Assembly (NCBI RefSeq): GCF_029029505.1
Contig: NZ_JAKJSD010000001.1
Location: 310,001 to 374,000, forward strand
DNA length: 64,000 nucleotides
Direction of reading: 5' to 3'
Source of the DNA: Ancylomarina sp. DW003
GTDB taxonomy: Bacteria; Bacteroidota; Bacteroidia; Bacteroidales; Marinifilaceae
Shown here: positions 9,654 through 49,680 of the stretch, in pieces
How positions within the stretch are numbered: position 1 is the first letter of the stretch
How the letters are laid out: every line of letters begins with the position of its first letter
Translations under genes and position numbers: made by a program
The notes under the pieces: model-generated
Told to the model about the DNA's origin: nothing
What the model saw: the letters and a program-made list of their open reading frames with translations, nothing else
Databases searched by the model: none

Positions 9654-9726
9654 ATTCTTCAATTTCAAAAAACATAGGCTATTCAAATCAGAATATCTGA
9701 TACAAATAGCCAATTAATCTTATCAA

Positions 9727-10200: not shown

Positions 10201-10286
10201 CTTCTTAATTATAATTATTTTGAAGCCTCACCTAAAATGGGCTCATTTTAATATTCTACTTGAGCTAAATTACAAAATAATTCAGC

Positions 10287-18429: not shown

Positions 18430-19560
18430 ATGAGTAAACTTTGCCTATTCATCCCTATTGTCTTCCTTCTTCTGACAACTTCCCCATCATTTTGCAATAA
18501 TCCAGCTCCCCAACATAAGGATACTGAACACAATTTTCTTGAATCGACAAAACAAGGAGAGCGTATTTTTAAAGGCTTAGTACTCACAAAATCAAATCTG
18601 AAATCTTGCGTCAGTTGTCACAACTTAACTTATTCAGATACTCTAAACTGGAACCCTTCAGCCTGGGATATTGCACACAGCTTTGCAGATAAAAAAACAT
18701 CAGATTTCAATTCTGTTATTAATGAACCTCTGGCTAAAGTCATGTCACAAGTACATGATGGTTACCAATACAATGAAGAAGAACTAAATCATATCAAAAA
18801 TTACCTTCTAAGTCTAAAAACACATGGTGCAGAAGAGCAAAAACCTGTAGTCAATAATCTTATTCTTTTCTTATTTCTAGGCTTGCTCATTACAATTGCA
18901 TTAATCGATTTATTCTTTACTAAGAAGATAAAATATAAATTCATTCCTATTCTAATATTCTTCGCTGCCTTTGGCTACCAAATAAAGATGCTTAGCGAAG
19001 ATGCAATGGCTTTAGGTCGAAATGAGAATTATGCCCCGGATCAACCTATTAAATTTTCTCACAAAGTACATGCTACTGATAATAAAATAGATTGTAGATA
19101 TTGCCACACTGGTGTTGACAACAGTAAATCTGCTGTTATCCCTTCTGCAAATGTCTGTCTCAACTGTCATTCAATAGTCAGAGAAGGTCGTAATTCCGGC
19201 AAGTTCGAAATCAATAAAATTCATGCTGCTGTCGAAAATAATAAACCCATAGAGTGGGTTCGTATTCACAAGTTGCCTGATCATGTCTTTTTTAGTCATG
19301 CACAACATGTAAATGTAGGTAAGCGTGAATGTCAGGAATGCCACGGCGAAGTTGAACAAATGCACATTGTAAAGCAGGTTGAAGATTTATCTATGGGCTG
19401 GTGTTTAGATTGTCATGATAAAACAGCCGTTGATTTCAATTATAACAATTATTACTCCAACACATTCAAAGAACTCCATTTAAAACTTGTAAAAGAACAA
19501 ACAGATAGTGTTCGAGTTACAGATATTGGCGGCAGAGAATGTGCCCGATGTCATTATTGA
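18430..19560 (+). CDS. actA: Alternative complex III subunit ActA, multiheme cytochrome c
   Basis: ActA carries the c-haem wire of alternative complex III, which oxidises menaquinol and reduces periplasmic cytochromes or an oxidase. The 376-aa protein has a signal peptide and six CxxCH motifs: one in an N-terminal domain (C60-C63-H64) and five after the membrane segments (about 146-166 and 173-191). The five C-terminal sites match the pentahaem ActA pattern; the N-terminal monohaem domain is an addition or a lineage variant. It is the first gene of the act-nos run. Confidence 0.92.
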   Translation: MSKLCLFIPIVFLLLTTSPSFCNNPAPQHKDTEHNFLESTKQGERIFKGLVLTKSNLKSCVSCHNLTYSDTLNWNPSAWDIAHSFADKKTSDFNSVINEPLAKVMSQVHDGYQYNEEELNHIKNYLLSLKTHGAEEQKPVVNNLILFLFLGLLITIALIDLFFTKKIKYKFIPILIFFAAFGYQIKMLSEDAMALGRNENYAPDQPIKFSHKVHATDNKIDCRYCHTGVDNSKSAVIPSANVCLNCHSIVREGRNSGKFEINKIHAAVENNKPIEWVRIHKLPDHVFFSHAQHVNVGKRECQECHGEVEQMHIVKQVEDLSMGWCLDCHDKTAVDFNYNNYYSNTFKELHLKLVKEQTDSVRVTDIGGRECARCHY

Positions 19561-19607
19561 TTTCAAAAACCTATTAACCTAAGGCGCTAACTGAAAAATC
19601 ACCCAAT

Positions 19608-22556
19608 ATGAAAAAATACTGGAAAAGCCAGCAAGAAAAAAACGAGAGTCCTGAGATAAAAACAGTCAAACACAAACCTAAAGGAAATCTGGAACAAGTT
19701 CTGGATATTTTTGAGGACGGAACTGTTGAAGCCAAGAGTAATCGTCGAGATTTCTTAAAGCTCTGCGGGTATAGTTTAGCTATTACAACTGTTTTATCGA
19801 GCTGTGAAAATGCCGTTCAAAAAGCAATTCCTTATTTAAATAAACCTGAAGAGATTACACCAGGTATTGCGAATTATTATGCATCAACATATATAAATGG
19901 TAGTGACTATGCCAGTATATTAGTAAAAACAAGAGAAGGACGACCAATTAAAATTGAAGGGAATAATTTATCGCCTATTAGCAATGGTGCTTGTTCTGCT
20001 CGTGTTCAGGCTTCTGTATTGAGTTTATATGACAGTAGTCGTTATCAGCACCCACAAATTAAGCAAGAGAAAGTATCGTGGGATGAGTTTGATAAATCTG
20101 TATCAGATGCTCTGGAAGCCCAAAAAGGAAATCAAATCGCTTTATTAACACCGACCATATTCAGCCCTTCTACCAGAAAAGCTATAAAACTATTTACGGC
20201 TAAGTATCCAAATATTAAATGGATTCAATACGATACGCAATCTGCGAGTTCAATTTTAAAGGCTCACAAACTTTGTTTTGGAAAAGAAATACTGCCTGAC
20301 TATCGTTTCAATAAAGCTAACCTTATTGTTAGTTTTGATGCCGATTTTCTAGGCACTTGGATTAATCCTGCTGAATACATCAAAACCTATACTGATACTC
20401 GTAAACTTTCCGGCACTAGCAATAAAATGTCCAGGCACATTCAGTTTGAATCACGAATGAGTTTGACCGGAAGTAATGCCGACGAAAGACACACCATTAA
20501 ACCATCAGAATTAAACTTACTAATCGCACAGCTTTATAATGAAATCCTGGCATTAAAAGGATTGAAAAAATACAATGCTTCTGAATCATCTCAAAAAATC
20601 AAAGAATTAGCAAATGATTTATTCAAGCAAAAATCACGCTCATTAGTTGTTTCCGGAAGTCATGATTTAAATGCTCAAATCATTATTAATGCCATAAATT
20701 ATGAACTTGAAAACCTGGATAAAACAATTCGTTTAGATAACCCATTACAGAATCATCAAGCTATTGATGAAGATATGGATCAATTAATAAACGATTTAGT
20801 TTCAGGTCAGGTGAAAGGCTTAATCTGCTATCATTCAAATCCGGTATACAATCATCACAAAGGTGATCAACTAAAAAAGGCAATAGAAAAATTAGCTTTT
20901 AGTTTATCGATTCATGAAGCGCCGAATGAAACCTCATCCTTAATGAAGTTTGTCGCACCAGACAATCATTATCTAGAAAGTTGGAACGATTCCGAGATAA
21001 AGAAAAATTCGTTTAGCTTAATGCAACCAGCTATTCACCCTTTATTCGATACGCGTCAGTTTCAAGCCTCACTTTTAAAGTGGTCTGATCTCGAAACAGA
21101 TTATCACAAATTTATCATGAAAAATTGGGAAGAAACTCTTTTCCCAACGCAAACACTTTACACAAGCTTTAAACCCTACTGGGAACATACTTTACAGGAA
21201 GGAATTTTCGAGATTAAGAATAATAGTCAGGCTAAATCTAAGTTTGCCCAAGTAGATATACAGAAAGCTTTTGATAAGTTGACACAAAAACCTGGCACAA
21301 AAAATATCGAACTTCAGGTTTATGAGACAATTGCTCTGGGTAACGGTACATCTGCTAACAATCCTTGGCTGCAAGAAATGCCTGATCCTATAAGTAAAAT
21401 TTGTTGGGATAACTACCTCAATATTTCGCCTAAGCAAGCCAAAGAGATGGAGCTTGAAAATGGAAATATGGTAAAGCTTAATGATAAGCTTGAATTACCT
21501 GTTTACATCCTTCCGGGACAAGCTTATAATTCAGTGTCTATTGCAACGGGTTACGGTCGTGAAATCTGTGGAAAAGTTGGTGCAGAAGTTGGATTCAATA
21601 CATCAGGATTCACTCAAAATGGATTTTCGAATGTAAAACTTCAAAAAATAGAAGGACAATATGACTTTGCGATGACTCAGACTCACCATTCCATGGAAGG
21701 AAGAGCTATCGTCAGAGAAGCTAATCTTGATGAATACAAAAAAAATCCTAAGGCAGGAAATGACCACAAACATAAATATAAGAATGCTGGCATTTATAAG
21801 GAACCCGAATTCCCAAATCATCATTGGGGCCTAGCCATTGACTTAAACGCTTGTATAGGATGTGGTGCTTGTACCATTGCCTGTCAGGCAGAAAATAATG
21901 TGCCTATTGTAGGAAAAAAGGAAGTCATTCGTGCACACGAAATGTCATGGATCAGAATCGACCGCTATTTCTCAGGAGATGAAAACAAACCAGGTGTCGT
22001 TTTTCAGCCTGTGATGTGTCAACATTGCGACAACGCTCCTTGCGAAAATGTGTGTCCTGTAGCGGCAACCAATCACAGCAGTGAGGGGTTAAATCAAATG
22101 ATTTATAACAGATGTATTGGAACTCGCTATTGCGGAAACAACTGCCCTTATAAAGTAAGACGCTTTAATTGGTATGATTATACTCAAGCAGATTCAATAC
22201 CAAACAATCTTCACGATCCGGCTGGCCTGACATCAGATTTGAGCCGTATGGTTCTTAATCCTGATGTAACAATAAGAGCCAAAGGTGTTATTGAAAAATG
22301 CTCGATGTGTGTACAACGAATTCAGGAAGGAAAACTGAATGCCAAACTTAAAGGTAGAAAAGTAAAGGATGGGGAAATTAAAACAGCCTGTCAGCAAACT
22401 TGTCCTTCTGGTGCTATACTATTTGGAGACTTAAACGATAAATCGAGTGAATTATTCAAAGTCACATCAAGCGGAAGGAATTACCATTTGTTGGAGGAAA
22501 TTCACACACTTCCATCTGTTAGCTACCTGACAAAAATTAGAAATAAGAAGAGTTAA
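19608..22556 (+). CDS. actB: Alternative complex III subunit ActB, molybdopterin-oxidoreductase-like plus Fe-S domain
   Basis: The 982-aa protein joins a large region resembling molybdopterin oxidoreductases (without an evident cofactor role, as in known ActB) to a C-terminal ferredoxin-like domain. The N-terminus has a Tat-type RRDFLK motif followed by a lipobox-like LSSC. Cluster motifs include CIGCGACTIAC, CQHCDNAPCENVCP, CIGTRYCGNNCP and CSMCVQ/CQQTCP. In the third, Thr replaces the second Cys, which fits one [3Fe-4S] and three [4Fe-4S] clusters. It lies 47 nt after actA. Confidence 0.93.
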   Translation: MKKYWKSQQEKNESPEIKTVKHKPKGNLEQVLDIFEDGTVEAKSNRRDFLKLCGYSLAITTVLSSCENAVQKAIPYLNKPEEITPGIANYYASTYINGSDYASILVKTREGRPIKIEGNNLSPISNGACSARVQASVLSLYDSSRYQHPQIKQEKVSWDEFDKSVSDALEAQKGNQIALLTPTIFSPSTRKAIKLFTAKYPNIKWIQYDTQSASSILKAHKLCFGKEILPDYRFNKANLIVSFDADFLGTWINPAEYIKTYTDTRKLSGTSNKMSRHIQFESRMSLTGSNADERHTIKPSELNLLIAQLYNEILALKGLKKYNASESSQKIKELANDLFKQKSRSLVVSGSHDLNAQIIINAINYELENLDKTIRLDNPLQNHQAIDEDMDQLINDLVSGQVKGLICYHSNPVYNHHKGDQLKKAIEKLAFSLSIHEAPNETSSLMKFVAPDNHYLESWNDSEIKKNSFSLMQPAIHPLFDTRQFQASLLKWSDLETDYHKFIMKNWEETLFPTQTLYTSFKPYWEHTLQEGIFEIKNNSQAKSKFAQVDIQKAFDKLTQKPGTKNIELQVYETIALGNGTSANNPWLQEMPDPISKICWDNYLNISPKQAKEMELENGNMVKLNDKLELPVYILPGQAYNSVSIATGYGREICGKVGAEVGFNTSGFTQNGFSNVKLQKIEGQYDFAMTQTHHSMEGRAIVREANLDEYKKNPKAGNDHKHKYKNAGIYKEPEFPNHHWGLAIDLNACIGCGACTIACQAENNVPIVGKKEVIRAHEMSWIRIDRYFSGDENKPGVVFQPVMCQHCDNAPCENVCPVAATNHSSEGLNQMIYNRCIGTRYCGNNCPYKVRRFNWYDYTQADSIPNNLHDPAGLTSDLSRMVLNPDVTIRAKGVIEKCSMCVQRIQEGKLNAKLKGRKVKDGEIKTACQQTCPSGAILFGDLNDKSSELFKVTSSGRNYHLLEEIHTLPSVSYLTKIRNKKS

Positions 22557-22575
22557 ACCACTATAAAATTGAGTT

Positions 22576-23946
22576 ATGTACGTATCTCCAATTCGAGAAC
22601 CTCTTATAAAAGGAAACAAAACTTATAGCCAAATCACCAAGGATATTGCAGCTCCAATTGAGGGTAAGCCCGGGAAAGCGTGGTATATGGGTATAAGCTT
22701 AAGTTTATCTGCCATGTTTTTAGGCCTTGCCATGATGGGATGGACCATTTGGGAAGGTATTGGAACCTGGGGGCTCAACCGAACCATTGGTTGGGGTTGG
22801 GGTATCACTAATTTTGTTTGGTGGGTAGGTATTGGTCACGCAGGAACTTTTATTTCAGCTATCCTCCTACTCTTCCGCCAAAAGTGGAGAACAAGTATCA
22901 ATCGCTCTGCAGAGGCAATGACCATTTTTGCTGTATTGTGTGCGGGCTTATTCCCTTTAATTCACATGGGGCGACCTCTTTTAGCATTTTTTGTATTCCC
23001 TTATCCTAATACCCGCGATTTGTGGGTGAATTTTAATTCTCCTCTTCTTTGGGATGTTTTTGCAATCTCTACCTATCTCTTGGTTTCTCTTCTATTCTGG
23101 TATATGGGATTAATTCCTGATATAGGAACCATGAGAGATAGAGTTAAGTCAAAAGCTAAAAAATTCATTTATGGTTTACTTAGTTTTGGTTGGACCGGTT
23201 CGGTCAAGCATTGGCAACGTCACGAAAAACTCAGTTTAATATTAGCTGGTTTAGCTGCACCTCTTGTCCTTTCGGTACACAGTATTGTAAGTGCTGACTT
23301 TGCAACTTCAATTATTCCTGGTTGGCATACAACAATATTCCCTCCCTATTTTGTTGCAGGAGCCATCTTTTCTGGCTTTGCGATGGTACTGACTCTATTG
23401 ATTGTTACACGTAAAGTTCTCAATTTGGAGAACTACATCACATTGGCTCATATTGAGTCTATGAATAAGATTATTATTGCCACGGGATCAATTGTAGGTA
23501 TAGCTTATTTGACCGAATTATTTATCTCTTGGTATTCTGGAGTCGAGTATGAACAATACGCCTTTTTAAATCGAGCGGCAGGACCATATTGGTGGGCTTA
23601 CGCAATAATGATGACATGTAATGTGATTTCACCTCAACTGCTTTGGTTTAGAAAATTGAGACGAAACCTTGTCTTCACTTTTATACTATCCATATTCATA
23701 AATATCGGAATGTGGTTCGAACGATTTGTTATTATCGTAACCTCTTTACATCGTGATTATCTACCTTCAAGTTGGTCTATGTATAAACCAACTCTTGTTG
23801 AGGTTGGAATCTTTGTAGGAACACTAGGCTTATTCTTCACTTGTTTCTTATTATTTATTCGTGCATTCCCTGTAATTGCTATTGCCGAGGTTAAAACTGT
23901 TGTTAAGAGTTCCGGAGAAAAAGAAATTAAAAACGAAACGCTATGA
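22576..23946 (+). CDS. actC: Alternative complex III subunit ActC, NrfD/PsrC-like quinol-binding protein
   Basis: The 456-aa polytopic protein of the NrfD/PsrC family has about ten membrane helices and is the expected quinol-oxidising subunit next to ActB. Visible family stretches include WWVGIGHAGTFISAILLLF, HMGRP and GWHTTIFPPYFVAGAI. Its stop overlaps the actD start (ATGA), so translation is coupled. Confidence 0.94.
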   Translation: MYVSPIREPLIKGNKTYSQITKDIAAPIEGKPGKAWYMGISLSLSAMFLGLAMMGWTIWEGIGTWGLNRTIGWGWGITNFVWWVGIGHAGTFISAILLLFRQKWRTSINRSAEAMTIFAVLCAGLFPLIHMGRPLLAFFVFPYPNTRDLWVNFNSPLLWDVFAISTYLLVSLLFWYMGLIPDIGTMRDRVKSKAKKFIYGLLSFGWTGSVKHWQRHEKLSLILAGLAAPLVLSVHSIVSADFATSIIPGWHTTIFPPYFVAGAIFSGFAMVLTLLIVTRKVLNLENYITLAHIESMNKIIIATGSIVGIAYLTELFISWYSGVEYEQYAFLNRAAGPYWWAYAIMMTCNVISPQLLWFRKLRRNLVFTFILSIFINIGMWFERFVIIVTSLHRDYLPSSWSMYKPTLVEVGIFVGTLGLFFTCFLLFIRAFPVIAIAEVKTVVKSSGEKEIKNETL

Positions 23947-24461
23947 GAAGATATATTTCAGCCTATTTTACAGATGAAGAAGATCTTTTGAGGGCAAGTA
24001 AAATCCTGATGGAAAAGGAAATTTCAATTCTGGATGTTTTAACACCTTTTCCGGTACATGGTTTAGATAAAGTATTGGGTTTAAAAGAATCTAAATTACC
24101 TACTGTTGGCTTTATAGCTGGTGCTATAGGAACAATCTTTGCCTTTGGTTTTCAAACCTGGGCTTTTGTGGTTGACTACCCCCTTTTTATTGGAGGTAAA
24201 CCTCATTTTGCTATTCCGGCATTCATCCCTATCACCTTTGAAGTAACAGTGCTATTTGCTGCATTCGCCATGGTATTTGCTTTCCTTTTTAGATCAAAAT
24301 TAGGTTTGGGTGCAAAAAATAAGATCCATGATGAAAGAATAACCGATGATCGATTTGTGATCATTATTGATGCAAATGAAAGCGATGAACATTTTGAAAA
24401 TGTGAAAAATATTTTGGAACATGAAGATGCTCATGATATTCAACTCAAAGAAAATCAATAG
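23943..24461 (+). CDS. actD: Alternative complex III subunit ActD (DUF3341)
   Basis: The 172-aa protein begins with a small cytosolic alpha/beta domain (AYFTDEEDLLRASKILMEKE) including a TPFPVHGLDKVLG segment. Two membrane helices follow (about 58-80 and 95-120), and it ends with a second cytosolic segment. This is the DUF3341 layout of ActD. It overlaps actC by 4 nt. Confidence 0.93.
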   Translation: MRRYISAYFTDEEDLLRASKILMEKEISILDVLTPFPVHGLDKVLGLKESKLPTVGFIAGAIGTIFAFGFQTWAFVVDYPLFIGGKPHFAIPAFIPITFEVTVLFAAFAMVFAFLFRSKLGLGAKNKIHDERITDDRFVIIIDANESDEHFENVKNILEHEDAHDIQLKENQ

Positions 24462-24482
24462 TCAATACTAAATCACTAGCTG

Positions 24483-25646
24483 ATGAATACGAATTATATC
24501 ATATCTAAAAAAACGAAACGGGTCTTTCTATCCATATCTGTGATAGGTATTCTTTTGATTGCACTCGGTTTCCTTTTTCAAAACCCTGAAAGTAAAAACA
24601 TTTGGATGAGTGTTTTACTCAACAATCTATATTTCCTGTTTTTATCTCTTTTCGGAGTTTTATTTATAGCTCTTCATAAAATTGCTCATTCTGGGTGGCA
24701 TGTGAGTTTAAAGCGTATACCTGAGGCTCTCAGTACATTTCTGCCTTACGCAGCAGTACTCATGTTTTTACTAATATTTGGGATGCACGATTTATATCAT
24801 TGGACACATCACGATTTACACGATCCAATTATAGAAGGAAAATCAGCATACCTTAACGTGCCTTTCTTCTTTATCAGGATGGCAGTTTATTTTGCAGGTT
24901 GGATTGGCTTAAGCTACCTTCTTCGTAAGAACTCAATGTCTCAGGATTTATCTGATGATTATAAATATCACAAACAGGGTAAAGTTTTAGCAGCTCTCTT
25001 TATGGCATTTTTTGCCGTGAGTAGTTCAACAATGAGTTGGGATTGGATTATGTCTGTTGATCCTCATTGGTTCAGTACATTATTTGGCTGGTATGTTTTT
25101 ATTGGTCTTTTCGTTTCAGGAATTGCAGCCTTTATTCTAATTATAGCTTTTCTTAAGTCTCAAGGTCACCTCGAGTTTGTTAATAAAGAACACTTACATG
25201 ATTTAGGAAAATACCTTTTTGGATTCAGTATTTTTTGGATGTACCTGTGGTTCTTTCAATACATGCTTATTTGGTATTCACATATTCCGGAAGAGACCAT
25301 TTATTTTGCTCAAAGGTTGAATGGTTTCCCTGTTCTATTTTTCACCATTCTCGTATTAAATTTCCTGTTCCCTTTCCTGGCTTTAATGACTAGGAATGCG
25401 AAACGAAATATCAAGTGGTTGGCAATGGTTGCCAGTGTTGTTCTAATAGGACAGTGGCTAAATATTTATCTCATGCTAAGTCCTGGTATTTTGGGTGAAA
25501 CAGCTCAAATTGGTTTTATTGAAATAGGTGCTGCCTGTTTATATCTGGGAGGCTTTCTGTGGGTTATATTCAACGCACTTTCTAAAAAGCCATTATTATG
25601 CAAAAATGATCCTTTCCTTGAAGAAAGTTTTCATTACGAAACCTAG
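24483..25646 (+). CDS. actF: Alternative complex III subunit ActF, second NrfD-like membrane subunit
   Basis: The 387-aa polytopic protein has about ten membrane segments, with conserved FAVSSSTMSWDWIMSVDPHW and LHKIAHSGWHVSLKRIPE stretches typical of ActF. It follows actD by 21 nt. In characterised Bacteroidota operons actE comes between actD and actF. Here the actE-like gene follows actF, separated by a repeat cassette. Confidence 0.92.
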   Translation: MNTNYIISKKTKRVFLSISVIGILLIALGFLFQNPESKNIWMSVLLNNLYFLFLSLFGVLFIALHKIAHSGWHVSLKRIPEALSTFLPYAAVLMFLLIFGMHDLYHWTHHDLHDPIIEGKSAYLNVPFFFIRMAVYFAGWIGLSYLLRKNSMSQDLSDDYKYHKQGKVLAALFMAFFAVSSSTMSWDWIMSVDPHWFSTLFGWYVFIGLFVSGIAAFILIIAFLKSQGHLEFVNKEHLHDLGKYLFGFSIFWMYLWFFQYMLIWYSHIPEETIYFAQRLNGFPVLFFTILVLNFLFPFLALMTRNAKRNIKWLAMVASVVLIGQWLNIYLMLSPGILGETAQIGFIEIGAACLYLGGFLWVIFNALSKKPLLCKNDPFLEESFHYET

Positions 25647-25802: not shown

Positions 25803-26280
25803 TGCAATTTCACAAAGACGCAATAAAGGAAAAAAGATGACTGAAAATGAAATATCAAAAGTCGTTGTTGATTGTGCATTAAAAGTACATCGACAATTAG
25901 GACCAGGATTACTTGAAAGTGCCTATCAAGAATGCTTAATGTATGAATTAAAGAATCAAGGATTAGTTGTCGAAAAAGAAAAACCGATACCTCTTGTATA
26001 TGACACAGTCAAACTTGATATTGGATATAGAATGGACCTTTTAATAAATAACAAACTGGTAATAGAAATTAAATCAGTTGAAAGCCTAAATGATATTCAT
26101 TTAGCTCAAATCTTAACATACTTGAAACTTTCAGGTTGTAAACTTGGCCTTTTAATAAATTTTAATGTTGCCCTTATCAAGCATGGTATCAAACGCGTAG
26201 TAAACAATTTATAGATATATAATAATCAACCTTGCGAACTCTGCGAAAAATGCTTTGCGTTCTTCGCGGTTAAAATAAGC
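25803..26280. repeat. Intact GxxExxY repeat cassette inside the act-nos operon
   Basis: The unit begins near CACAAAGACGCAATAAAGG and ends with ACTCTGCG...TGCTTTGCGTTCTTCGCGG TTAAAATAAGC. The right edge is the imperfect inverse of the left edge of the truncated unit upstream (ACCGCAAAGA type). Such GCAAAG-rich inverted flanks commonly accompany GxxExxY genes. The cassette ends 2 nt before the actE-like ATG and so supplies that gene's leader. Confidence 0.7.
25837..26214 (+). CDS. GxxExxY protein
   Basis: The 125-aa protein carries the name-giving motif in GPGLLESAYQECL near residues 22-34. It then has EIKSVESLNDIHLAQILTYL, resembling a PD-(D/E)xK nuclease-like core with conserved IEIKS. The family is widespread and of unproven function. 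It is usually found as an isolated gene flanked by GCAAAG-rich inverted repeats, as here. Nothing ties it to respiration, and its place between actF and the actE-like gene looks like insertion. Confidence 0.88.
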   Translation: MTENEISKVVVDCALKVHRQLGPGLLESAYQECLMYELKNQGLVVEKEKPIPLVYDTVKLDIGYRMDLLINNKLVIEIKSVESLNDIHLAQILTYLKLSGCKLGLLINFNVALIKHGIKRVVNNL

Positions 26281-26282
26281 TT

Positions 26283-27260
26283 ATGAAAAACGATTTAAGA
26301 AATACTATCATCTTATTATTCTTTATTTCAATATTCATTTCTTGTGATAGGAATAGAAACCACCCCGGGCATTCCTACTTTCCGGATATGGCCGATTCCA
26401 GAGCCTACGAAAGCTATACTGCTAATCCAAATTTTGCCGATAGTTCATCTGCACGTTTACCTGTAAAAGGAACTATACCTCGAGGAATTACGCCTTTTAA
26501 CTTCGAAAAGACTCTGGAAGATAGAGCTTTGGCTGGCCAAATCTTTTTTAATCCGGAAAAAATGAAACTAAAAGACGTTAAAGAGGGTAAAAAGCTATAT
26601 AAGATATATTGTTATAACTGTCATGGATTAAAAGGGAATGGTATGGGGTATTTATTTACCAGCGATCGATTTACTTATCAACCTGCCAGTTTAATATCAG
26701 ATAAAATGATGAATGCTCCGCGTGGAGAATTCTACCATGTTATAACTCTCGGTTATGGTATTATGGGAGCTCATGGCTCACAAATTACTCCAGACGACAG
26801 ATGGAAAATAATCGAATACATTAAAGTGAAGCTACAAGGAAAGAAGTTAGGAGAGAAAACGGTTTCAGTAGTTGATGACAGCCCTAAGGAAAGTAATGCA
26901 GACTTTGAAGCTAGAATAATGAAAGCATATCCGAACCAAAAAGGGTTTGGTCCTGTAAAATCATTAAAACTAGGTGCTATTAATAATCAAATGGCTGAAG
27001 AAGGACAAAAAATATACAAACGAATGTGCACAAGTTGTCATAAGCCAACTAAACGCTATATCGGACCTGCACCAAAAGGTATAATGGATAGAAGAACACC
27101 GGAATGGATTATGAATATGATTCTTAATCCTGAAGAAATGGTTGCAAAAGATCCTATTGCCAAAGAATTACTAGGCAGATATTTATCTCCTATGGCGGAT
27201 CAAAATTTAACAGAAGAAGAAGCTAGAAAAGTCTTAGAATACTTTAGAACAATAAAGTAA
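26283..27260 (+). CDS. Diheme lipoprotein cytochrome c: ActE-like domain fused to a Nos-type cytochrome c
   Basis: The 325-aa protein has a lipoprotein signal with lipidated C21 (IFISC). Residues about 25-185 look like ActE: the PDMADSRAYESY segment, one haem site C110-x2-C113-H114 and GYGIMGAHGSQ. A linker leads to a second cytochrome domain (about 235-325) with C249-x2-C252-H253 and RRTPEWIMNMILNPEEM. Domains of that kind often occur as a separate cytochrome before nosZ in Bacteroidota. Usual ActE is monohaem and shorter. The gene sits 36 nt before nosZ. An ActE subunit that also serves as NosZ donor is the simplest reading, but it is inference. Its mRNA leader comes from the repeat cassette. 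Confidence 0.82.
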   Translation: MKNDLRNTIILLFFISIFISCDRNRNHPGHSYFPDMADSRAYESYTANPNFADSSSARLPVKGTIPRGITPFNFEKTLEDRALAGQIFFNPEKMKLKDVKEGKKLYKIYCYNCHGLKGNGMGYLFTSDRFTYQPASLISDKMMNAPRGEFYHVITLGYGIMGAHGSQITPDDRWKIIEYIKVKLQGKKLGEKTVSVVDDSPKESNADFEARIMKAYPNQKGFGPVKSLKLGAINNQMAEEGQKIYKRMCTSCHKPTKRYIGPAPKGIMDRRTPEWIMNMILNPEEMVAKDPIAKELLGRYLSPMADQNLTEEEARKVLEYFRTIK

Positions 27261-27296: not shown

Positions 27297-29267
27297 ATGG
27301 AAAAGTCAAGATTTAAGTGGTTAGCGTATCTTTTTATCATCGGGTTTATATTTTCAGCCTGCGGTGATAATTCAAAACAACAATCTAAAGGAGCATTTGG
27401 TGACCAAGATGCAGCCTCTCAAGTATATGTGTCGCCTGGAGAATACGATGAGTTTTATGCCTTTATGTCTGGTGGATTTAGTGGACAAGTAAGTGTATAT
27501 GGATTACCTTCAGGTCGATTATTTAAAGTGATTCCTGTTTTCTCGGTAGATGCAGAAAAAGCTTATGGTTTTAATGAAGAAACAAAGCCAATGCTGAACA
27601 CTTCTTTTGGTTTTATTCCTTGGGATGATTCTCACCATCCAGAGTTATCTCAAACCAATGGAGTGCCTGATGGTCGCTGGTTATTCATTAATGGTAACAA
27701 TACGCCAAGAATAGCCCGTATTGATTTAACAACTTTTGAAACAGCAGAAATTATTGAGATTCCAAATTGTGGTGGTAATCATAGTTCGCCATTTATTACC
27801 GAGAATTCAGAATATGTTGTTGCAGGAACACGATTCAGTGTACCTATTCCTCAAAAAGATGTTAGCATTAAATCTTACAAAGAGAATTTTAAAGGATCGC
27901 TATCCTATATTAAGATTGCAGATGATGGAGAAATGAGCGTTGCATTCCAGATTTTAGTTCCTGGTTACGATTATGACTTAGCCCATTCGGGTAAAGGAAA
28001 ATCTCATGGATGGACATTCTTTACAACTTATAATACTGAGGAAAGTAATACATTACTTGAAATTGGTGCATCGCAACGCGACAAGGATTATATTGCTGCA
28101 GTAAACTGGAAAAAAGCAGAAGAATATATTGCCGCTGGTAAGGCTAAAACCATGCCTGCAAACTATGCACACAATACGTATGATGAGCATAGCCATATGG
28201 CAAAATCAGAAATGCTTAAGGAAGTTAAAGTGCTTATCCCACAAGAATGTCCTGGCTTAATTTATTACTTGCCAACCCCAAAGTCACCTCATGGTGTCGA
28301 TGTAGATCCTTCTGGAGAATATATCGTTGGTAACGGAAAACTATCTTCAGATCTAACTGTACATTCATTCTCGAAAATGCTTAAGGCAATAGAGAATGAT
28401 GATTTTGATGATGAAGTTGATGGTATTCCTGTAATTAATTTTGAAAGTGTTGTAGCTGGTTCTGTTAAAAGTACAGGTCTTGGGCCACTGCATACCGAAT
28501 TTGATGGAAAAGGAAATGCTTATACAACTTTCTTTATCTCATCTGAAGTAATTAAATGGAAAATAGGAACTTGGGAAGTTCTTGATCGTGTTCCTAGTTA
28601 CTATTCAGTTGGTCACTTAATGATTCCTGGAGGAGATTCAAAAGCACCTTTTGGAAAATATTTAGTTTCATTAAATAAGATTACTAAAGATCGCTTTTTA
28701 CCAACAGGTCCTGAGCTAACACAATCAGCGCAGCTATTCGATATATCCGGTGATAAGATGAAGCTCTTACTGGATTTCCCAACTATTGGTGAACCCCATT
28801 ATGCACAAGCAATTCCAGCGGATATCATCATGAAAAATTCGGTGAAATATTATAAGCTTGACGAAAATAAACACCCTCACAAGATTTCTTCTGAAGATGA
28901 AGCTAAGGTTGTGAGAGATGGTAATATCGTTCGAGTTTATATGACTTCAATTCGTTCACACTTTGCACCTGATAATATTGAAGGAATTAAAGTTGGTGAT
29001 AAAGTATATTTCCACCTAACCAATCTTGAACAAGACTGGGATGTTCCTCATGGTTTTTCTGTAATGGGAGCAAGAACATCTGAGATATTAGTAATGCCAG
29101 GTCAAACTGAGACCTTAGTTTGGGAACCTCAATTCCCTGGAGTATATCCTTTCTATTGTACTGACTTCTGTTCAGCACTTCATCAAGAAATGCAAGGATA
29201 TGCACGAGTATCTCCAAAAAATTCAAACGTTGAATTAAAATGGAGTGTAGGAGAATTTGATGAATAA
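27297..29267 (+). CDS. nosZ: Nitrous oxide reductase, clade II (Sec-type, lipoprotein)
   Basis: NosZ reduces N2O to N2 in the periplasm using CuA and CuZ copper centres. The 656-aa protein has a Sec/lipoprotein signal (lipobox ending at C22) instead of the Tat signal of clade I. CuZ ligands include HH at 113-114 in DDSHHPELSQTNG and further histidines along the seven-bladed propeller. The C-terminal CuA site is C621-x3-C625-x3-H629 with M632 (FYCTDFCSALHQEM). No extra C-terminal haem domain is present. It is followed by a strong stem-loop and then the nos accessory genes. Confidence 0.97.
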   Translation: MEKSRFKWLAYLFIIGFIFSACGDNSKQQSKGAFGDQDAASQVYVSPGEYDEFYAFMSGGFSGQVSVYGLPSGRLFKVIPVFSVDAEKAYGFNEETKPMLNTSFGFIPWDDSHHPELSQTNGVPDGRWLFINGNNTPRIARIDLTTFETAEIIEIPNCGGNHSSPFITENSEYVVAGTRFSVPIPQKDVSIKSYKENFKGSLSYIKIADDGEMSVAFQILVPGYDYDLAHSGKGKSHGWTFFTTYNTEESNTLLEIGASQRDKDYIAAVNWKKAEEYIAAGKAKTMPANYAHNTYDEHSHMAKSEMLKEVKVLIPQECPGLIYYLPTPKSPHGVDVDPSGEYIVGNGKLSSDLTVHSFSKMLKAIENDDFDDEVDGIPVINFESVVAGSVKSTGLGPLHTEFDGKGNAYTTFFISSEVIKWKIGTWEVLDRVPSYYSVGHLMIPGGDSKAPFGKYLVSLNKITKDRFLPTGPELTQSAQLFDISGDKMKLLLDFPTIGEPHYAQAIPADIIMKNSVKYYKLDENKHPHKISSEDEAKVVRDGNIVRVYMTSIRSHFAPDNIEGIKVGDKVYFHLTNLEQDWDVPHGFSVMGARTSEILVMPGQTETLVWEPQFPGVYPFYCTDFCSALHQEMQGYARVSPKNSNVELKWSVGEFDE

Positions 29268-29339: not shown

Positions 29340-29933
29340 ATGATACCTAACCTATTCAGCAAGAATAATAGATCTCAGCTATTCATGTTTTTAGCAGCAT
29401 TAATGCTACTGGGACTATTTCTTTTCCCCCTTTGGAAAATTAGACTAGAAGCCCCACAATATCCTAACGGAGTAAACATGTATATTTGGATAAATCAAAT
29501 TACAGGTGACTCTCCCAGCACTTTGCAAAACATCAATATTCTCAATCATTATATTGGGATGCAGTATATTAAACCCGATTCTATTCCTGAGCTTAAATAT
29601 TTCCCTATTGTCGTCATAATCATGTCGCTATTAGGCATTGTAATTGCATTTTCTAAGAAAAGAAAGCTCTTTATCACCTGGGGTGTTATTCTCCTAATTT
29701 TAGGCATTCTAGGCATCTACGATTTCTATTTATGGGAATACGACTATGGTCATAACTTGAGCCCCAATGCTCCCATAAAAATTCCCGGCATGGTGTATCA
29801 GCCTCCTCTTATAGGATCGAAAATGTTATTAAATTTTAATGCTATTTCTTTACCACATATAGGATCCTTATTCTTAGGTTTAGCTATGGTATTCAACTTT
29901 TTATCTTTTACATTATTATGGAAAAAAAAATAA
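29340..29933 (+). CDS. Four-helix membrane protein between nosZ and nosL
   Basis: The function of this 197-aa protein is not recognised. It has four predicted membrane helices (about 13-32, 88-104, 110-132, 172-193). The large first loop carries APQYP (38-42) and LNHYIGM (68-74), and the last loop carries QPPLIG (154-159). It contains no cysteine and few histidines. It occupies the place of nosB in the epsilonproteobacterial clade II cluster (directly after nosZ), but homology to NosB cannot be judged by eye. Overlap with nosL by 16 nt argues for a nos-related role, for instance in NosZ assembly or electron transfer. Confidence 0.75.
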   Translation: MIPNLFSKNNRSQLFMFLAALMLLGLFLFPLWKIRLEAPQYPNGVNMYIWINQITGDSPSTLQNINILNHYIGMQYIKPDSIPELKYFPIVVIIMSLLGIVIAFSKKRKLFITWGVILLILGILGIYDFYLWEYDYGHNLSPNAPIKIPGMVYQPPLIGSKMLLNFNAISLPHIGSLFLGLAMVFNFLSFTLLWKKK

Positions 29934-30373
29934 TTTTATCCCATTCTTTCATAATTATCATGTTGCTATTAGCATCATGTCAACCCAAAGAAAAAGCGAT
30001 TGTCTACGGTCAGGATGAATGTATACATTGCCGGATGATGATTGTAGAGAATCAATATGGTACTGAATTGGTAACAAAAAAAGGCAAAGTGTACACTTTC
30101 GATTCCATTGAGTGCTTGATCGATTATCTTAGAACGGACAATATTGACGAAAACGAAGTGGCGCTATCACTGGTTACTGCTTTCAATCAACCTAATAAAT
30201 TAAGGGCAGTAAAAGATTCATACTACCTGCATTCAATAAAACTACCTAGTCCGATGGGCATGTTTTTAACCGCCTTTGAAAGTAAGGCAGCTGCTGAAGA
30301 AGCCAAAGCAAAATATGGTGGTGAAGTCATGGATTGGGAACTTCTTCTTAAAAAATACGATTCATTTAAATAA
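29918..30373 (+). CDS. nosL: NosL-type copper-binding lipoprotein
   Basis: NosL delivers Cu(I) for assembly of the NosZ copper centres. The 151-aa protein has a lipobox (LLASC) and the ECIHCRMMI motif, matching the CxxC-M metal site of NosL. It also has the KGKVYTFDSIECL segment typical of the NosL/NosD-associated fold. It overlaps the upstream membrane-protein gene and is 6 nt before nosD. Confidence 0.92.
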   Translation: MEKKIILSHSFIIIMLLLASCQPKEKAIVYGQDECIHCRMMIVENQYGTELVTKKGKVYTFDSIECLIDYLRTDNIDENEVALSLVTAFNQPNKLRAVKDSYYLHSIKLPSPMGMFLTAFESKAAAEEAKAKYGGEVMDWELLLKKYDSFK

Positions 30374-30379
30374 AGCGAT

Positions 30380-31624
30380 TTGCAAAGGTTTAGCTTTCTT
30401 ATTTTTTGCTTACTCATCACCTGTAATTCTATGGGTGATGTACTTCGTGTGGGAAAAAAACAAGCTTATCAAACCATTACACAAGCGATTAATAATAGCC
30501 ATCCCGGTGATTCAATTCTTATAGAAAACGGTTCATATACCGAACCGAACCTTCTAATTAAACATCCTCTCCATATTATAGGGATAGGATTTCCTAGCGT
30601 TGAAAATCAAGATGAAAAGGAAATCATTACAATTGAATCCGATAGTGTTAATATAACAGGTTTACTCTTGAAGAATGTCAAGGTTAGTTATATCAACGAT
30701 TTTGCGGCGATTAAGGTTAATGGGCAGAAACATTGTATCATCTCAAATAATCAATTAGAAAATACATTTTTTGGAATATTTTTAAAACAATCGAAAAACT
30801 GTATCATCCGAAACAATCAAATAAAAGGAAATGCTAAAAATGAAATGTCATCAGGTAATGCAATTCATCTTTGGTATTGTAAAAATATTCAGGTTGAAGA
30901 AAATCAGGCCAGAAACCATCGTGATGGCATCTATCTCGAGTTTGTAGACAATAGTGTCGTTAGGAATAATATTGTTGAAAACAACATACGGTATGGCCTT
31001 CATTTTATGTTTTCAGATCATGATGAGTATATGGGAAATATATTCCGTTCAAACGGAGCTGGTGTAGCAGTCATGTTTTCCAAATTCATTAAAATGCAAA
31101 ACAATCAGTTTGAATTCAACTGGGGAAGTGCATCCTACGGTCTGCTTCTAAAAGATATTACTGATAGTGAAATCATCAATAATGTTTTTAAACAAAACAC
31201 AATTGCCATTTATATGGAAGGTGCCAACCGGGTAGATATTCATAAAAATGAATTCAAAAATAATGGTTGGGCCATGAAAATTTATGGTAGTAGCATGTAC
31301 AACAACATCAACCGTAATAATTTCTTAAACAACAGCTTTGAACTTGGAGTAAGTGGCAGATCTGACAGTAATAATTTCAATGAGAATTACTGGAGTTCCC
31401 ATACGGGATATGATCTTGACAAGGATGGTATTGCTGATGTACCCTATCGTCCGGTTAAATTATTTTCGCGAATTATAAGTAAAATACCTTCAACCAGCAT
31501 TTTGATGCGAAGTTTATTGATTGACATTATTGATTTTGCAGAAAAAGTAAATCCTGTACTCACACCTGATAATTTAAAGGATCATCGCCCTTTAATGAAA
31601 ACCATAGACTATGATAAAAATTGA
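30380..31624 (+). CDS. nosD: NosD periplasmic beta-helix protein
   Basis: NosD works with NosF and NosY in building the copper-sulfide CuZ site. The 414-aa protein is a right-handed parallel beta-helix with repeated N-x-(I/F)-x-x-N turns (for example NNIVENNIRYGLHFMFSDHD). The start is a TTG at 30380: it gives a signal peptide (MQRFSFLIFCLLITC), an in-frame stop lies just upstream, and the first ATG would remove the signal. It overlaps nosF by 14 nt. Confidence 0.93.
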   Translation: MQRFSFLIFCLLITCNSMGDVLRVGKKQAYQTITQAINNSHPGDSILIENGSYTEPNLLIKHPLHIIGIGFPSVENQDEKEIITIESDSVNITGLLLKNVKVSYINDFAAIKVNGQKHCIISNNQLENTFFGIFLKQSKNCIIRNNQIKGNAKNEMSSGNAIHLWYCKNIQVEENQARNHRDGIYLEFVDNSVVRNNIVENNIRYGLHFMFSDHDEYMGNIFRSNGAGVAVMFSKFIKMQNNQFEFNWGSASYGLLLKDITDSEIINNVFKQNTIAIYMEGANRVDIHKNEFKNNGWAMKIYGSSMYNNINRNNFLNNSFELGVSGRSDSNNFNENYWSSHTGYDLDKDGIADVPYRPVKLFSRIISKIPSTSILMRSLLIDIIDFAEKVNPVLTPDNLKDHRPLMKTIDYDKN

Positions 31625-32318
31625 AAACCTAAATAAAGCTTACAAAAAAAATCAAGTTTTAAAGGATATCAATTTAGAACTCGAGAAAAATAAAATAATT
31701 GCCATTTTAGGTCCTAACGGGTCTGGAAAAACCACTCTCATAAAATCAATTTTAGGATTGGTAATTCCACAAAAAGGCAATATTATTTTTAATGGTCAGT
31801 CTGTTATTGGAGAATGGGAGTATCGGAATAAAATATCGTATTTGCCTCAAATAGCCAGCTTTCCTGAAAATTTAAAGGTTTCGGAACTTATCGCATTAGT
31901 TAAAGATATCCGACAACAAGATGTGGAAGATGAACATTTAATTCAATATTTTAAGTTAGACGAAGAATTGAATAAACCTTTACGCAATCTTTCCGGTGGA
32001 ACCAGACAAAAGGTTAATATGGTTTTGGCTTTCATGCTTGATTCACCTGTAATTATTTTGGATGAACCTACCGTTGGACTTGATCCTGTTGCTATTAGTC
32101 GATTCAAATCCTTATTGAAGGAAGAGAAGGCCAAAGGGAAACTCATTATTTTTACAACTCACATTATGAGTTTGGTACAGGAAATAGCTGATGAAATTAT
32201 TTTTCTACTCGAAGGAGATATTTATTTCCAGGGTTCCGTAGAAGAATTAATTAGTCAAAATGGTTCTTCAAAATTAGAATCTGCCATCACAAATCTAATT
32301 GAAAAAAGCCATGCTTAA
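31611..32318 (+). CDS. nosF: NosF ABC transporter ATPase
   Basis: NosF energises the NosDFY complex. The 235-aa ATPase has Walker A GPNGSGKTT near residue 35, signature LSGGTRQ near residue 126, and Walker B VIILDEPTVGLDP. It overlaps nosD at its start and nosY at its end. Confidence 0.95.
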   Translation: MIKIENLNKAYKKNQVLKDINLELEKNKIIAILGPNGSGKTTLIKSILGLVIPQKGNIIFNGQSVIGEWEYRNKISYLPQIASFPENLKVSELIALVKDIRQQDVEDEHLIQYFKLDEELNKPLRNLSGGTRQKVNMVLAFMLDSPVIILDEPTVGLDPVAISRFKSLLKEEKAKGKLIIFTTHIMSLVQEIADEIIFLLEGDIYFQGSVEELISQNGSSKLESAITNLIEKSHA

Positions 32319-33093
32319 AATACTCAAATATAGCCTCTTCGACCTTGTCCGATCTAATTGGAGTATCGCCTACCTCACATTTTATTTATTAGTGAGCTCA
32401 TCTATTCTTTATATGAATGGTGACCTTACTAAATCTATCATTAGTATGATGAATGTAATTCTCCTGTTGATTCCGTTGGTCGCAACTGTTTTTGGTGCAA
32501 TTTACATGTATAATTCTCGTGAATTTTCAGAATTACTGCTTTCTCATCCAATTAAAAGAAAATCAATATTTCTTGGACAATATTTTGGTTTAGCAATCTC
32601 TTTATCACTCAGTTTTATAATAGGTGTAGGACTTCCATTTATTTTCCGAGGGATTTTCGGTAGCCCTCAATTATCAAACTTTCTCGTTCTAATTGGAGTC
32701 GGTTTAATTCTAAGCTTTATCTTTTCTTTGCTAAGTTTTTTTGTGGCTCTCCGTTTCGAAAATCGAATAAAAGGCTTTGGCTTATCTCTGTTTATCTGGC
32801 TTTTTATGTCGATAATTTATGATGGACTCTTATTGCTCATCTTAATTTGGTTTGAATCCTACCCCACAGAAAAACTTGCTATAGCACTCACTCTTATTAA
32901 TCCGATTGATTTAGGCAGAGTTCTTATCATGTTATTTCTTGACACATCTGCTCTTATGGGATATACCGGAGCTGTTTTTTATAAATTCTTTGGAGCTTGG
33001 CAAGGTATTCTTATTTCACTAAGCTCATTACTTGTATGGTTAATATTACCTTTATACCTACTACTTAAGTATACAAAAAGAAAAGATTTTTAG
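32311..33093 (+). CDS. nosY: NosY ABC transporter permease
   Basis: NosY is the membrane partner of NosF in copper-site maturation of NosZ. The protein has about six membrane helices and an EFSELLLSHPIKRKSIFLGQ cytosolic coupling segment typical of NosY. I chose the ATG at 32311 (260 aa) over an upstream TTG at 32299; either way it overlaps the nosF stop. It is the last gene of the operon and is followed by a strong terminator. Confidence 0.94.
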   Translation: MLKILKYSLFDLVRSNWSIAYLTFYLLVSSSILYMNGDLTKSIISMMNVILLLIPLVATVFGAIYMYNSREFSELLLSHPIKRKSIFLGQYFGLAISLSLSFIIGVGLPFIFRGIFGSPQLSNFLVLIGVGLILSFIFSLLSFFVALRFENRIKGFGLSLFIWLFMSIIYDGLLLLILIWFESYPTEKLAIALTLINPIDLGRVLIMLFLDTSALMGYTGAVFYKFFGAWQGILISLSSLLVWLILPLYLLLKYTKRKDF

Positions 33094-33206: not shown

Positions 33207-34148
33207 TTATTTCAATGTTTCCATGAACTTGATGATTTCCTTAATATCATCTTCCTTCAGTTCATTCTTGTAAGATAACATTAAACCTTTTTTATATCCT
33301 TTTACGATATCATCGTTAGGATTATAAATGGAATTTATAATATAGGTGCTGTCAACAGTTACTTCTCGTTCTTTTCCTTTGGTCAGAACTGTTTCCTTAG
33401 TTCCAAATAAGCCTTTCCAAGTTGGACCAACAATTTTAGACCCATCCAAAGAATGACAGGCTAAACAACCATTTTTCTGTACAATACGTAGTCCTAGGGC
33501 TCCGGGTTTATCAGAAATAACAGGAGCCACTGTTGTCGTATCTATATACCACTTATCAAACTCATCTTCTGCCATAACAACAACCGAAGTGGTCATTGAG
33601 GAATGAGACAAACCACAATATTCGGTACAGAATAAATCAAAATTACCTTCTCTCCCAGCTATAAACCACATAAATTCCTCTTTCCCGGGAACCAAATCTT
33701 GCTTCAACCGGAATGCAGGAATATAAAGACTATGCAACACATCTAAAGCTACTAAATCAAGCTTTACGGCACGATCTTTAGGTACATAGAGTGTATCTGT
33801 CCTCTTACCATTTTCATACTCAAATTGCCAATTCCACATACGACCAATACTTTTGATTGTAAAGGCATCGTCAGGAACCTCTTTCATAGGTTTATATCCC
33901 ATCCAGCCGTAATAAAACATGACCATTACCAGAACGGTTGGTATAAGCGTCCAAATAATCTCAAGCATATTATTACCATGAATTTGCTTTGCTTTCGGAT
34001 GCTTCGATTTTCTATATCGGAAAACGAAATAAATCATAGTCGCAGTAATTCCAACTAGAAAAAATGAAATTATTCCAAATATGACCATAAAGGAAGTATC
34101 TACTCCTTGAACAAAATTGGATGCGTCAGCCATTTCTTTTGAAAACAT
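33207..34148 (-). CDS. coxB: Cytochrome c oxidase subunit II with fused cytochrome c (caa3 type)
   Basis: The 313-aa protein has two N-terminal membrane helices and a cupredoxin domain with the CuA site C-x3-C-x3-H (FCTEYCGLSH). A C-terminal cytochrome c domain (CLACH) ends with IIKFMETLK. The fused haem domain defines a caa3-type subunit II, which takes electrons from a cytochrome or directly from alternative complex III. It is the last gene of the sco-coxA-coxC-coxD-coxB run. Confidence 0.94.
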   Translation of the reverse strand: MFSKEMADASNFVQGVDTSFMVIFGIISFFLVGITATMIYFVFRYRKSKHPKAKQIHGNNMLEIIWTLIPTVLVMVMFYYGWMGYKPMKEVPDDAFTIKSIGRMWNWQFEYENGKRTDTLYVPKDRAVKLDLVALDVLHSLYIPAFRLKQDLVPGKEEFMWFIAGREGNFDLFCTEYCGLSHSSMTTSVVVMAEDEFDKWYIDTTTVAPVISDKPGALGLRIVQKNGCLACHSLDGSKIVGPTWKGLFGTKETVLTKGKEREVTVDSTYIINSIYNPNDDIVKGYKKGLMLSYKNELKEDDIKEIIKFMETLK

Positions 34149-34151
34149 AAG

Positions 34152-34439
34152 CTATCGGTATAAGTAGTCTAAAAATGTAACGATAATAACAGAGGTTAAT
34201 AAGAGAGCGATTCCAGCCATCATGATGGCGTAAAATTTCTTATCAAACTTAAGATGCATAAAATACATCAATACAATAACAGATTTTACAGAAGCAAAAA
34301 GTAAGGCACCTGTTACCGTGTAAACTCCTAAATCTAATTGTGTAATTGCAACAGAACTGAAAGTGAGTACCAATAGAATTATCAGTATCCAAACAAAAGT
34401 GCTGTACTTTACAATGTGTGTATGTTGACCATTATCCAT
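34152..34439 (-). CDS. coxD: Cytochrome c oxidase subunit IV (prokaryotic type)
   Basis: This 95-aa protein with three hydrophobic segments contains VKSVIVLMYFMHLKFD, the KxxLVLxxFMHL-like motif of prokaryotic subunit IV. It lies between coxC and coxB with gaps of 10 and 3 nt. Confidence 0.88.
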   Translation of the reverse strand: MDNGQHTHIVKYSTFVWILIILLVLTFSSVAITQLDLGVYTVTGALLFASVKSVIVLMYFMHLKFDKKFYAIMMAGIALLLTSVIIVTFLDYLYR

Positions 34440-34449
34440 ATTTTCAGTT

Positions 34450-47349: not shown

Positions 47350-47370
47350 CTAAATCTGATTAAGATTTAG
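47350..47370. terminator. Hairpin between the 42-aa gene and the convergent cytochrome gene
   Basis: CTAAATCT (47350-47357) pairs with AGATTTAG (47363-47370) around GATTA, overlapping the cytochrome stop. No clear T-run follows on either side. Confidence 0.4.
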
Positions 47371-48271: not shown

Positions 48272-48286
48272 GTGTTTCTTGATTTT

Positions 48287-49627: not shown

Positions 49628-49680
49628 AAGTAAAATGATTTTCTATGAATATTTAATATATCGTGTGTTTTAATCTTTGA

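Follow-up and report, generated by a model that had tools for sequence, protein, structure and literature searches.

Nitrous oxide (N2O, laughing gas) is a strong greenhouse gas that is destroyed by N2O reductase (NosZ), and the Bacteroidota are a large group of N2O reducers. We know of no established electron donor to NosZ in Bacteroidota. The locus studied here raises the question of whether alternative complex III (ACIII) could supply NosZ through one of its own subunits. A preliminary description of this DNA had noticed a single lipoprotein with two different c-haem domains, the first resembling ActE and the second resembling the cytochrome that precedes nosZ, and had read it as a possible link from ACIII to NosZ. 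The window, i.e., the whole stretch of DNA analysed (64,000 nucleotides), is part of contig C1 of a genome of 4.84 Mb that is 99.98% complete.

Gene content of the locus

The genes are arranged in the order actABCDF (18430-25646), a GxxExxY gene, the fused gene actE::cyt, a gap of 36 bp, nosZ (27297) and further nos-type genes up to 33093, bearing out the first placement of the fused gene between the act genes and nosZ. The features are:

18430..19560, + strand: actA, multihaem cytochrome, CxxCH at 60, 222, 243, 301, 325 and 371 (6btm_A, E=7.8e-49)
19608..22556, + strand: actB, iron-sulfur / molybdopterin-like ACIII subunit (6btm_B, E=3e-209)
22576..23946, + strand: actC, NrfD-type membrane quinol subunit (PF03916)
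23943..24461, + strand: actD (PF11821 ActD, E=1e-54)
24483..25646, + strand: actF (6btm_F, E=4e-92)
25837..26214, + strand: GxxExxY (PDDEXK_3) gene between actF and actE::cyt (TIGR04256, E=6e-44)
26283..27260, + strand: actE::nos-cytochrome fusion, two haem c motifs (PDB and Pfam matches)
27297..29267, + strand: nosZ, Sec-type N2O reductase (TIGR04246, 942.7 bits, cut-off 625)
29340..29933, + strand: conserved membrane protein 3' of nosZ, in the NosB place (position in relatives)
29918..30373, + strand: nosL-like copper lipoprotein (position; same place in relatives)
30380..31624, + strand: nosD-like (position)
31611..32318, + strand: nosF-like ABC ATPase (position)
32299..33093, + strand: nosY-like ABC permease (position)
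33207..36667, - strand: coxB (which carries a CxxCH itself), a pair of small genes and coxA, a caa3-type oxidase convergent to the nos genes (coxA PF00115; layout in relatives)

The six CxxCH motifs of ActA comprise one N-terminal motif and five others. A search of the window's own genome found only one full-length ActB. The GxxExxY gene, which is missing at this place in the relative G001, looks like an insertion into the respiratory operon and no part of the system. With NosZ over the TIGR04246 cut-off and a nosL/D/F/Y-like gene order, the cluster fits the clade II (Sec) nos type. A sequence scan of NosZ found no CxxCH of its own, and no nosR was noticed among the ORFs of the window's nos cluster, which were inspected by eye. 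The product of 29340-29933, a presumptive NosB, matches no Pfam family over the cut-off. Of the 67 named nosZ loci among the best 80 loci described below, 64 have its counterpart, as do nos loci of the order sample; in the other three of the 67, the sequence stops inside or soon after nosZ. The nosL, nosD, nosF and nosY names at 29918-33093 are presumptive, given by position. A promoter scan at the locus returned hits at chance level only, and a terminator search found none. Elsewhere in the window (47360-50616), a three-gene set encoding a cytochrome c, an NrfD-like protein and a ferredoxin-like protein resembles a small ACIII-like module; it is also present in G001 and in the more distant fusion carrier G811.

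The fused protein

The ORF at 26283-27260 (+) starts with ATG and encodes a predicted lipoprotein of 325 aa with lipobox Cys21. Two CxxCH motifs were identified, at residues 110-114 and 249-253, and a Pfam scan returned two cytochrome c stretches, so the protein is a lipoprotein with two different c-haem domains, as initially described. Its parts are:

26346..26840, + strand: ActE domain (residues 22-186), haem motif 26610-26624, Met161 26763-26765
26346..26492, + strand: N-terminal ActE part (residues 22-70), which looks genus-native by segment identities, the remainder being unlike same-genus unfused ActE
26841..26936, + strand: linker (residues 187-218), weakly conserved, low model confidence in part
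26937..27257, + strand: nos-type cytochrome c domain (residues 219-325), haem motif 27027-27041, Met304 27192-27194

The best PDB match of domain 1 (residues 24-182) is 6btm_E, ActE of the Flavobacterium ACIII (E=1.2e-29), in agreement with its first assignment as ActE-like; further ActE matches are 6f0k_E (3e-21), 6lod_E (2e-14) and 8k9e_E (3.5e-13). Domain 2 (residues 222-324) best matches 3CP5, a cytochrome c of Rhodothermus marinus (E=6.7e-24; 5.3e-25 when the domain is queried by itself), and is also related to the mobile domain of ActA (6btm_A, E=4e-5). A Foldseek search with the predicted structure returned ActE chains as its top three matches and also paired 3CP5, at 42% identity. The model is moderately confident overall (mean pLDDT 70; below 50 at residues 250-262 of domain 2) and shows helical parts flanking a less certain linker. 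Met161, the candidate axial ligand of the ActE haem, is present in 77/77 aligned ActE rows with a residue there, and Met304, the candidate axial ligand of the cytochrome haem, in 117/117 such cytochrome rows. Lipobox Cys21, CxxCH 110-114 and the candidate ligand Met161 are thus accompanied by an added second haem domain, unlike in a single-haem ActE, and the nos-type cytochrome is here the C-terminal domain of ActE and not a free lipoprotein or soluble protein.

The fusion is intact in the window, in G001 (86% identity), in G054 (66-68%) and in G578, and the copy in G811 is cut at a contig end. This recurrence rules out a sequencing error, an assembly artefact or chance.

Origin of the second domain

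A scan was run over the genome contigs of 84,980 species, and the best 80 loci were taken. Of these, 72 are stand-alone cytochromes, 7 hold an ActE and 1 is fused. In 67 of the 72 stand-alone loci among these best 80, nosZ lies on the same strand 5-687 bases downstream with nos genes behind it; the gap is shorter than 200 bases in 35 of the 67, and longer gaps could fit a small gene. The five stand-alone loci without a following nosZ are L080, L083 (near contig end), L090, L128 and L129, and none of the 72 gave an ActE match. In the order sample, nosZ comes next in 12 of 14 stand-alone cytochrome loci, the exceptions being those of G518 and G563. Domain 2 shares 56-70% identity with the free cytochromes among the best 80 loci, and its profile finds free relatives with a best E value of 3.7e-53.

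The structural homologue has the same setting. The cytochrome of G098 (L246:8048-8356) shares 100% identity with 3CP5 over the 104 residues compared, and we therefore take G098 to be R. marinus. A NosZ match (L246:8448-10382) starts 92 bases after this cytochrome gene. The likeness of the second domain to the cytochrome before nosZ, as originally proposed, is thus upheld by the best 80 loci, by the order sample and by the 3CP5 genome. Reduction of soluble cytochrome c by the R. marinus ACIII is reported in PMC5928083, which cites the 3CP5 paper (Stelter 2008) for it. Since the 3CP5 gene and its relatives are set among nos genes, the cytochrome family reportedly reduced by R. marinus ACIII is a nos-operon family. 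In the literature searched, no mention of the nos setting of 3CP5 was met.

In a phylum sample of 395 genomes, ActE is present in 124 of the 128 genomes with a nos-type cytochrome (E<=1e-20) vs 154 of the 267 others (p=9e-19, kinship uncorrected). Because ActE already accompanies nearly all of these cytochromes, the fusion appears to replace a free shuttle cytochrome, and the initial proposal that it replaces NosR or bc1 was overstated.

Distribution of the fusion and its association with nosZ

The nos-type ActE fusion was found in five genomes of three genera and two families: the window's genome (G000), G001 and G054 in family f1, and G578 and G811 in family f15. Named proteins from Marinifilum and from Labilibaculum sit among the f1 ActE proteins in the ActE tree, and we take this family to be the Marinifilaceae. 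nosZ is present in all five genomes. Both haem motifs and Met161 are kept in 5/5 fusions and Met304 in 4/4 of the whole copies. Three carriers are of lower quality: G054 (6% contamination, with nosZ on a different contig from the fusion), G578 (82% complete) and G811 (75% complete).

The counts that follow are drawn from related genomes and are not kinship-independent. ActE matched at E<1e-25 in 26 of 96 relatives; it is fused in three (G000, G001 and G054) and unfused in 23; the latter include one ActE cut by a contig end and one ActF-ActE fusion. The same-genus genome G003 gave no ActE match at E<1e-25. NosZ exceeds the curated cut-off in 4 of the 96 (G000, G001, G054 and G071), and the cytochrome of G071 is free. 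Within f1, the fusion and nosZ occur together in 3/56 genomes and either alone in 0/56 (Fisher p=3.6e-5, kinship uncorrected), and the 18 genomes of this family that have ActE and no nosZ over the cut-off carry an unfused ActE. In the order sample of 393 genomes, three fused genes (G000, G578 and G811) were among the strong domain-2 matches, and nosZ at E<=1e-60 was detected in 25 genomes, including all three. ActE better than 1e-50 is found in 20 of these 25, as the three fusions and as 17 frames of 188-222 aa, four of which were read directly and have one haem motif each. In the phylum sample, the window holds the only ActE fusion among the strong matches listed. A profile search found no second strong nos-cytochrome match in G000, G578 or G811.

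Two sets of candidates for further fusions were rejected. Long frames with weak domain-2 matches in the order sample lie 6.2-7.7 kb from ActE in 10 paired genomes; this is about the actA-to-actE distance, and they are therefore taken as ActA N-terminal domains. The only one of the 10 that was read, ActA of G723 (L336:3-1409), has seven CxxCH in the available piece. Among 20 stretches with long ActE frames, 17 have an ActE ORF and none of these is of the nos type; they are ActD-ActE types, long single-haem forms or dihaem types of family f65, and the remaining three (L290, L295 and L296) gave no ActE match at the threshold used.

In f65, ActE carries a second haem domain in all 12 act loci picked (L297-L308). 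This domain matches CoxB in 12/12 (E 2e-19 to 5e-9), and five C-termini queried apart matched the CoxB cytochrome domain at 8e-25 to 1e-12 vs 2e-4 at best for the nos cytochrome. The same cluster contains coxBA on the far side of actF. The ActA ORF was read in 11 of these loci and shows five CxxCH in 10 of them, the remaining one being cut, with four. These proteins rule out that dihaem ActE is nos-specific, and dihaem ActE as such is not new. Neither finding that would have refuted the first reading was made: the second domain does match nos-linked cytochromes, and the nos-type fusion was seen only with nosZ (5/5). Dihaem ActE without a nos cytochrome does exist, but its second domain is of the CoxB type; a nos-type cytochrome match was found in six of the 12 f65 genomes and in none of the other six.

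Genomic settings and evolutionary origin

The fusion occurs in two settings. In G001, actE::cyt and nosZ are separated by tens of bases, as in the window, and actF and actE::cyt are equally close. The same-genus genome G002, with no nosZ over the cut-off, has a monohaem actE followed directly by the convergent coxB, and this actE/coxB junction is where the window has its nos genes. The window's actE is a mosaic. Its residues 22-70 share 86-88% identity with unfused ActE of the same genus (G002 and G004), whereas residues 71-186 share 36-61% with these two, which share 56-87% with each other; over the latter segment the window's protein shares 60-76% identity with the fused protein of G054 and more than 90% with that of G001. 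Recombination inside actE is the simplest reading of this pattern, in which the fused C-terminal part would have replaced the native one in the window's genus along with the arrival of the nos genes.

The pattern in G054 is mixed. Its residues 22-70 share 84-86% identity with ActE of its own genus (G016 and G040) vs 59% with the window, and residues 141-186 share 83-85% vs 76%; residues 71-95 alone lean to the window's protein (60% vs 48%). Recombination in actE of G054 as well is therefore doubtful, and the identities support one such event. Because its ActE domain mostly resembles that of its own genus, the G054 fusion may have arisen on a native ActE.

In f15 (G578 and G811), the order is nosZ, a NosB-like gene, three genes, nosL-D-F-Y, actA-B-C-D-F and actE::cyt, all in one direction. 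The fused actE is the last gene seen, at the opposite end of the set from nosZ, and no free cytochrome was seen before nosZ in either genome. The set spans two contigs in each, with the break inside actB in G578 and inside nosZ in G811/G490, and we infer from where the pieces break that the sets are continuous. A second, monohaem ActE is encoded on another contig in both genomes, within a complete actABCDFE set in G578 and beside actF up to the contig end in G811. G069, a third species of this genus, carries a single monohaem ActE and gave no nosZ match. The fusion in f15 would thus be borne by an additional copy of the entire ACIII gene set, linked to the nos genes.

The phylogenies are compatible with a single origin of the five fusions but do not establish it (p-AU 0.457 for their common clade in the ActE tree; SH-aLRT 72 in the cytochrome tree). 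A plasmid origin was considered and rejected, as only nosZ-level matches were obtained, on two plasmids.

Proposed electron route and alternative explanations

The domain comparisons, gene order and co-occurrence with nosZ support the original reading of the protein as an ACIII-to-NosZ link, and we consider it probable that the fused ActE gives ACIII a built-in exit to NosZ through a tethered nos cytochrome. ActE carries, on a linker, the cytochrome c that is encoded separately before nosZ in most nosZ-bearing Bacteroidota examined. Menaquinol would be oxidised at ActC and the electrons passed to ActB, the haems of ActA and the haem of ActE, and from there through the tethered cytochrome to CuA in NosZ. 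In this way a free shuttle would become a built-in exit, and NosZ would share the output of ACIII with the caa3 oxidase. The latter could receive its electrons via the N-terminal haem of ActA, which stands apart from the others, in line with the proposal made for Flavobacterium. The transfer of electrons to NosZ, its direction and its benefit are what we infer from these sequences.

The bc1 cytochrome b (PF00032) was not found in any of the five fused genomes, two of which are 75-82% complete, and the same model matched in 7 of 14 control genomes. Electrons from menaquinol therefore probably reach haem c by way of ACIII in the fused genomes. With a single full ActB detected in its genome, the window probably has to use the same ACIII for the caa3 oxidase as well, likely the other client of the complex. 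One point against the proposed exit is that 17 of the 20 order-sample genomes with both nosZ and ActE manage without the fusion.

The route bears on a published question, namely what ActE donates to in Flavobacterium. In F. johnsoniae, aa3 oxidase activity is reported to be intact after deletion of actE, and the authors offer two options: ActE feeds another acceptor, with electrons splitting at the ActA/ActE interface, or it serves only as an electron sink (PMC8552683). The parts of that study used here make no mention of nitrous oxide. For the window, the simplest reading of the sequences is that the acceptor of ActE would be the tethered nos cytochrome and then NosZ, with the N-terminal haem of ActA serving the oxidase. 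The natural fusion makes the questions of the NosZ donor and of the ActE acceptor both testable.

Instead, the second domain might be a general extra ACIII shuttle working mainly for the caa3 oxidase, its nos ancestry being a mere record of its source. We judge this unlikely, despite several points in its favour. The window's nos and cox genes both adjoin the same ACIII, the only one found in the genome. In R. marinus, which has a five-haem ActA, direct donation from ActE to the caa3 oxidase is reported, as is a potential of +165 mV for the ActE haem (PMC5928083). The f65 dihaem ActE has a CoxB-type domain and is clustered with coxBA in 12/12 loci. Domain 2 is also related to the mobile domain of ActA, which is thought to serve the oxidase, so the nos cytochrome could serve the oxidase too. 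Yet CoxB and ActA of the window already own extra haem motifs, and actE is unfused both in the 18 f1 genomes without nosZ over the cut-off and where cox lies beside act, in G002 and seven named Marinifilaceae loci. In G578 and G811, moreover, the fused set sits with nos genes although another ActE exists.

A neutral fusion is decidedly less probable still. Here the nos genes would have arrived beside actE and its stop codon been lost, the product still working with no special coupling. The position of actE as the last act gene in f1, directly upstream of the nos gene site, and trees that allow a single origin both agree with this. The spread over three genera and two families with conserved haem motifs and methionines (Met161 in all five, Met304 in the four whole copies) speaks against it, as does the fused actE of G578 and G811, which lies at the far end of the set from nosZ, so that adjacency alone is insufficient as a cause. 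That the tethered cytochrome activates or repairs NosZ (CuZ reduction or copper loading) and does not deliver turnover electrons is highly improbable: its free relatives do sit among the nosL/nosDFY maturation genes, but NosZ of the window has no CxxCH and its genome no second strong nos-cytochrome match, which would leave NosZ lacking any such turnover donor.

If the exit to NosZ is real, a fixed wire would let N2O reduction in these bacteria conserve energy at ACIII, which would then be a branched hub whose exits can be exchanged. It seems that ActE is an exit onto which an acceptor's cytochrome can be fused. The chances appear about even for the wider proposal of a nos-wired ACIII, which in f15 would be a dedicated second copy. 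Its ActE would covalently bear the NosZ donor, allowing energy-conserving N2O respiration with no free carrier, and ActE would be a branch exit customised by fusing the acceptor's cytochrome, that of NosZ here and that of the oxidase in f65.

Comparison with known systems and other fusions

The idea that ACIII feeds N2O reduction is already in print, for denitrifiers that lack bc1 and in which ACIII is stated to pass electrons from quinol on to N2O (PMC9270275), and act-nos clustering is known from Methylacidiphilum (PMC11102522). As far as the literature was searched, three things are new: the fusion of ActE with a nos cytochrome, the second ACIII set linked to nos genes and the setting of 3CP5 in a nos locus; no description of such a fusion was met in the titles, abstracts and parts of texts covered.

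The ACIII of F. johnsoniae (6BTM) likewise has ActABCDEF, a hexahaem ActA and a lipid-anchored ActE, but its ActE has one haem, vs two here, and the proposed acceptor is not identified in the parts of PMC8552683 used here. The R. marinus cytochrome 3CP5 is a homologue of domain 2 encoded before nosZ; unlike here, it is a free protein apart from ActE. For the R. marinus ACIII (6F0K), soluble cytochrome c is a reported electron acceptor, and ActE is given as the caa3 donor (PMC5928083). In Methylacidiphilum caldifontis IT6 (Verrucomicrobiota), the nos cluster lies inside the ACIII gene cluster and act and nos genes are clustered as here, but with two nosC cytochrome genes and no fusion mentioned in the parts of the article used (PMC11102522). 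In Neisseria, an extra C-terminal haem of CcoP branches electrons to the nitrite reductase AniA, which is likewise a second exit to a denitrification enzyme, although in another complex, to another enzyme and via soluble cytochrome c2 (PMC8552683). The f65 dihaem ActE shares with the present protein a C-terminal acceptor-like haem domain, which is there of the oxidase type. ActD-ActE of Melioribacter roseus is also an ActE fusion, but its partner is a membrane subunit and it has a single CxxCH (PMC3534657). ActD and ActE are joined in other families too, as seen in the long-frame survey, and one act set (G092) has both ActF-ActE and ActC-ActD fusions (L182:8052-9581 and 9586-11523).

The nos-type cytochrome is also joined to other proteins. 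In G448 (L181:7407-8636), CcoP of a cbb3 oxidase is fused to it, between ccoNO and nos genes, in parallel to Neisseria CcoP/AniA. G171 (L179:3555-5357) and G289 (L180:5190-6971) encode a protein of ~600 aa that ends in a nos-type cytochrome directly before nosZ; outside this C-terminal cytochrome, the G171 protein matches no Pfam family. These three cases show that fusion of the nos cytochrome to another protein next to nosZ has happened repeatedly. An exception is G257 (L178:4039-7017), in which a 992-aa GDSL lipase + DUF7133 protein ends in a nos-type cytochrome and no nos genes were found within the 8.5 kb read around it. In five genomes (G831:C873, G704:C506, G695:C223, G767:C85 and G645:C31), a long NosZ frame (~800-900 aa) lies beside a second NosZ-like frame of ~750 aa that falls below the curated cut-off.
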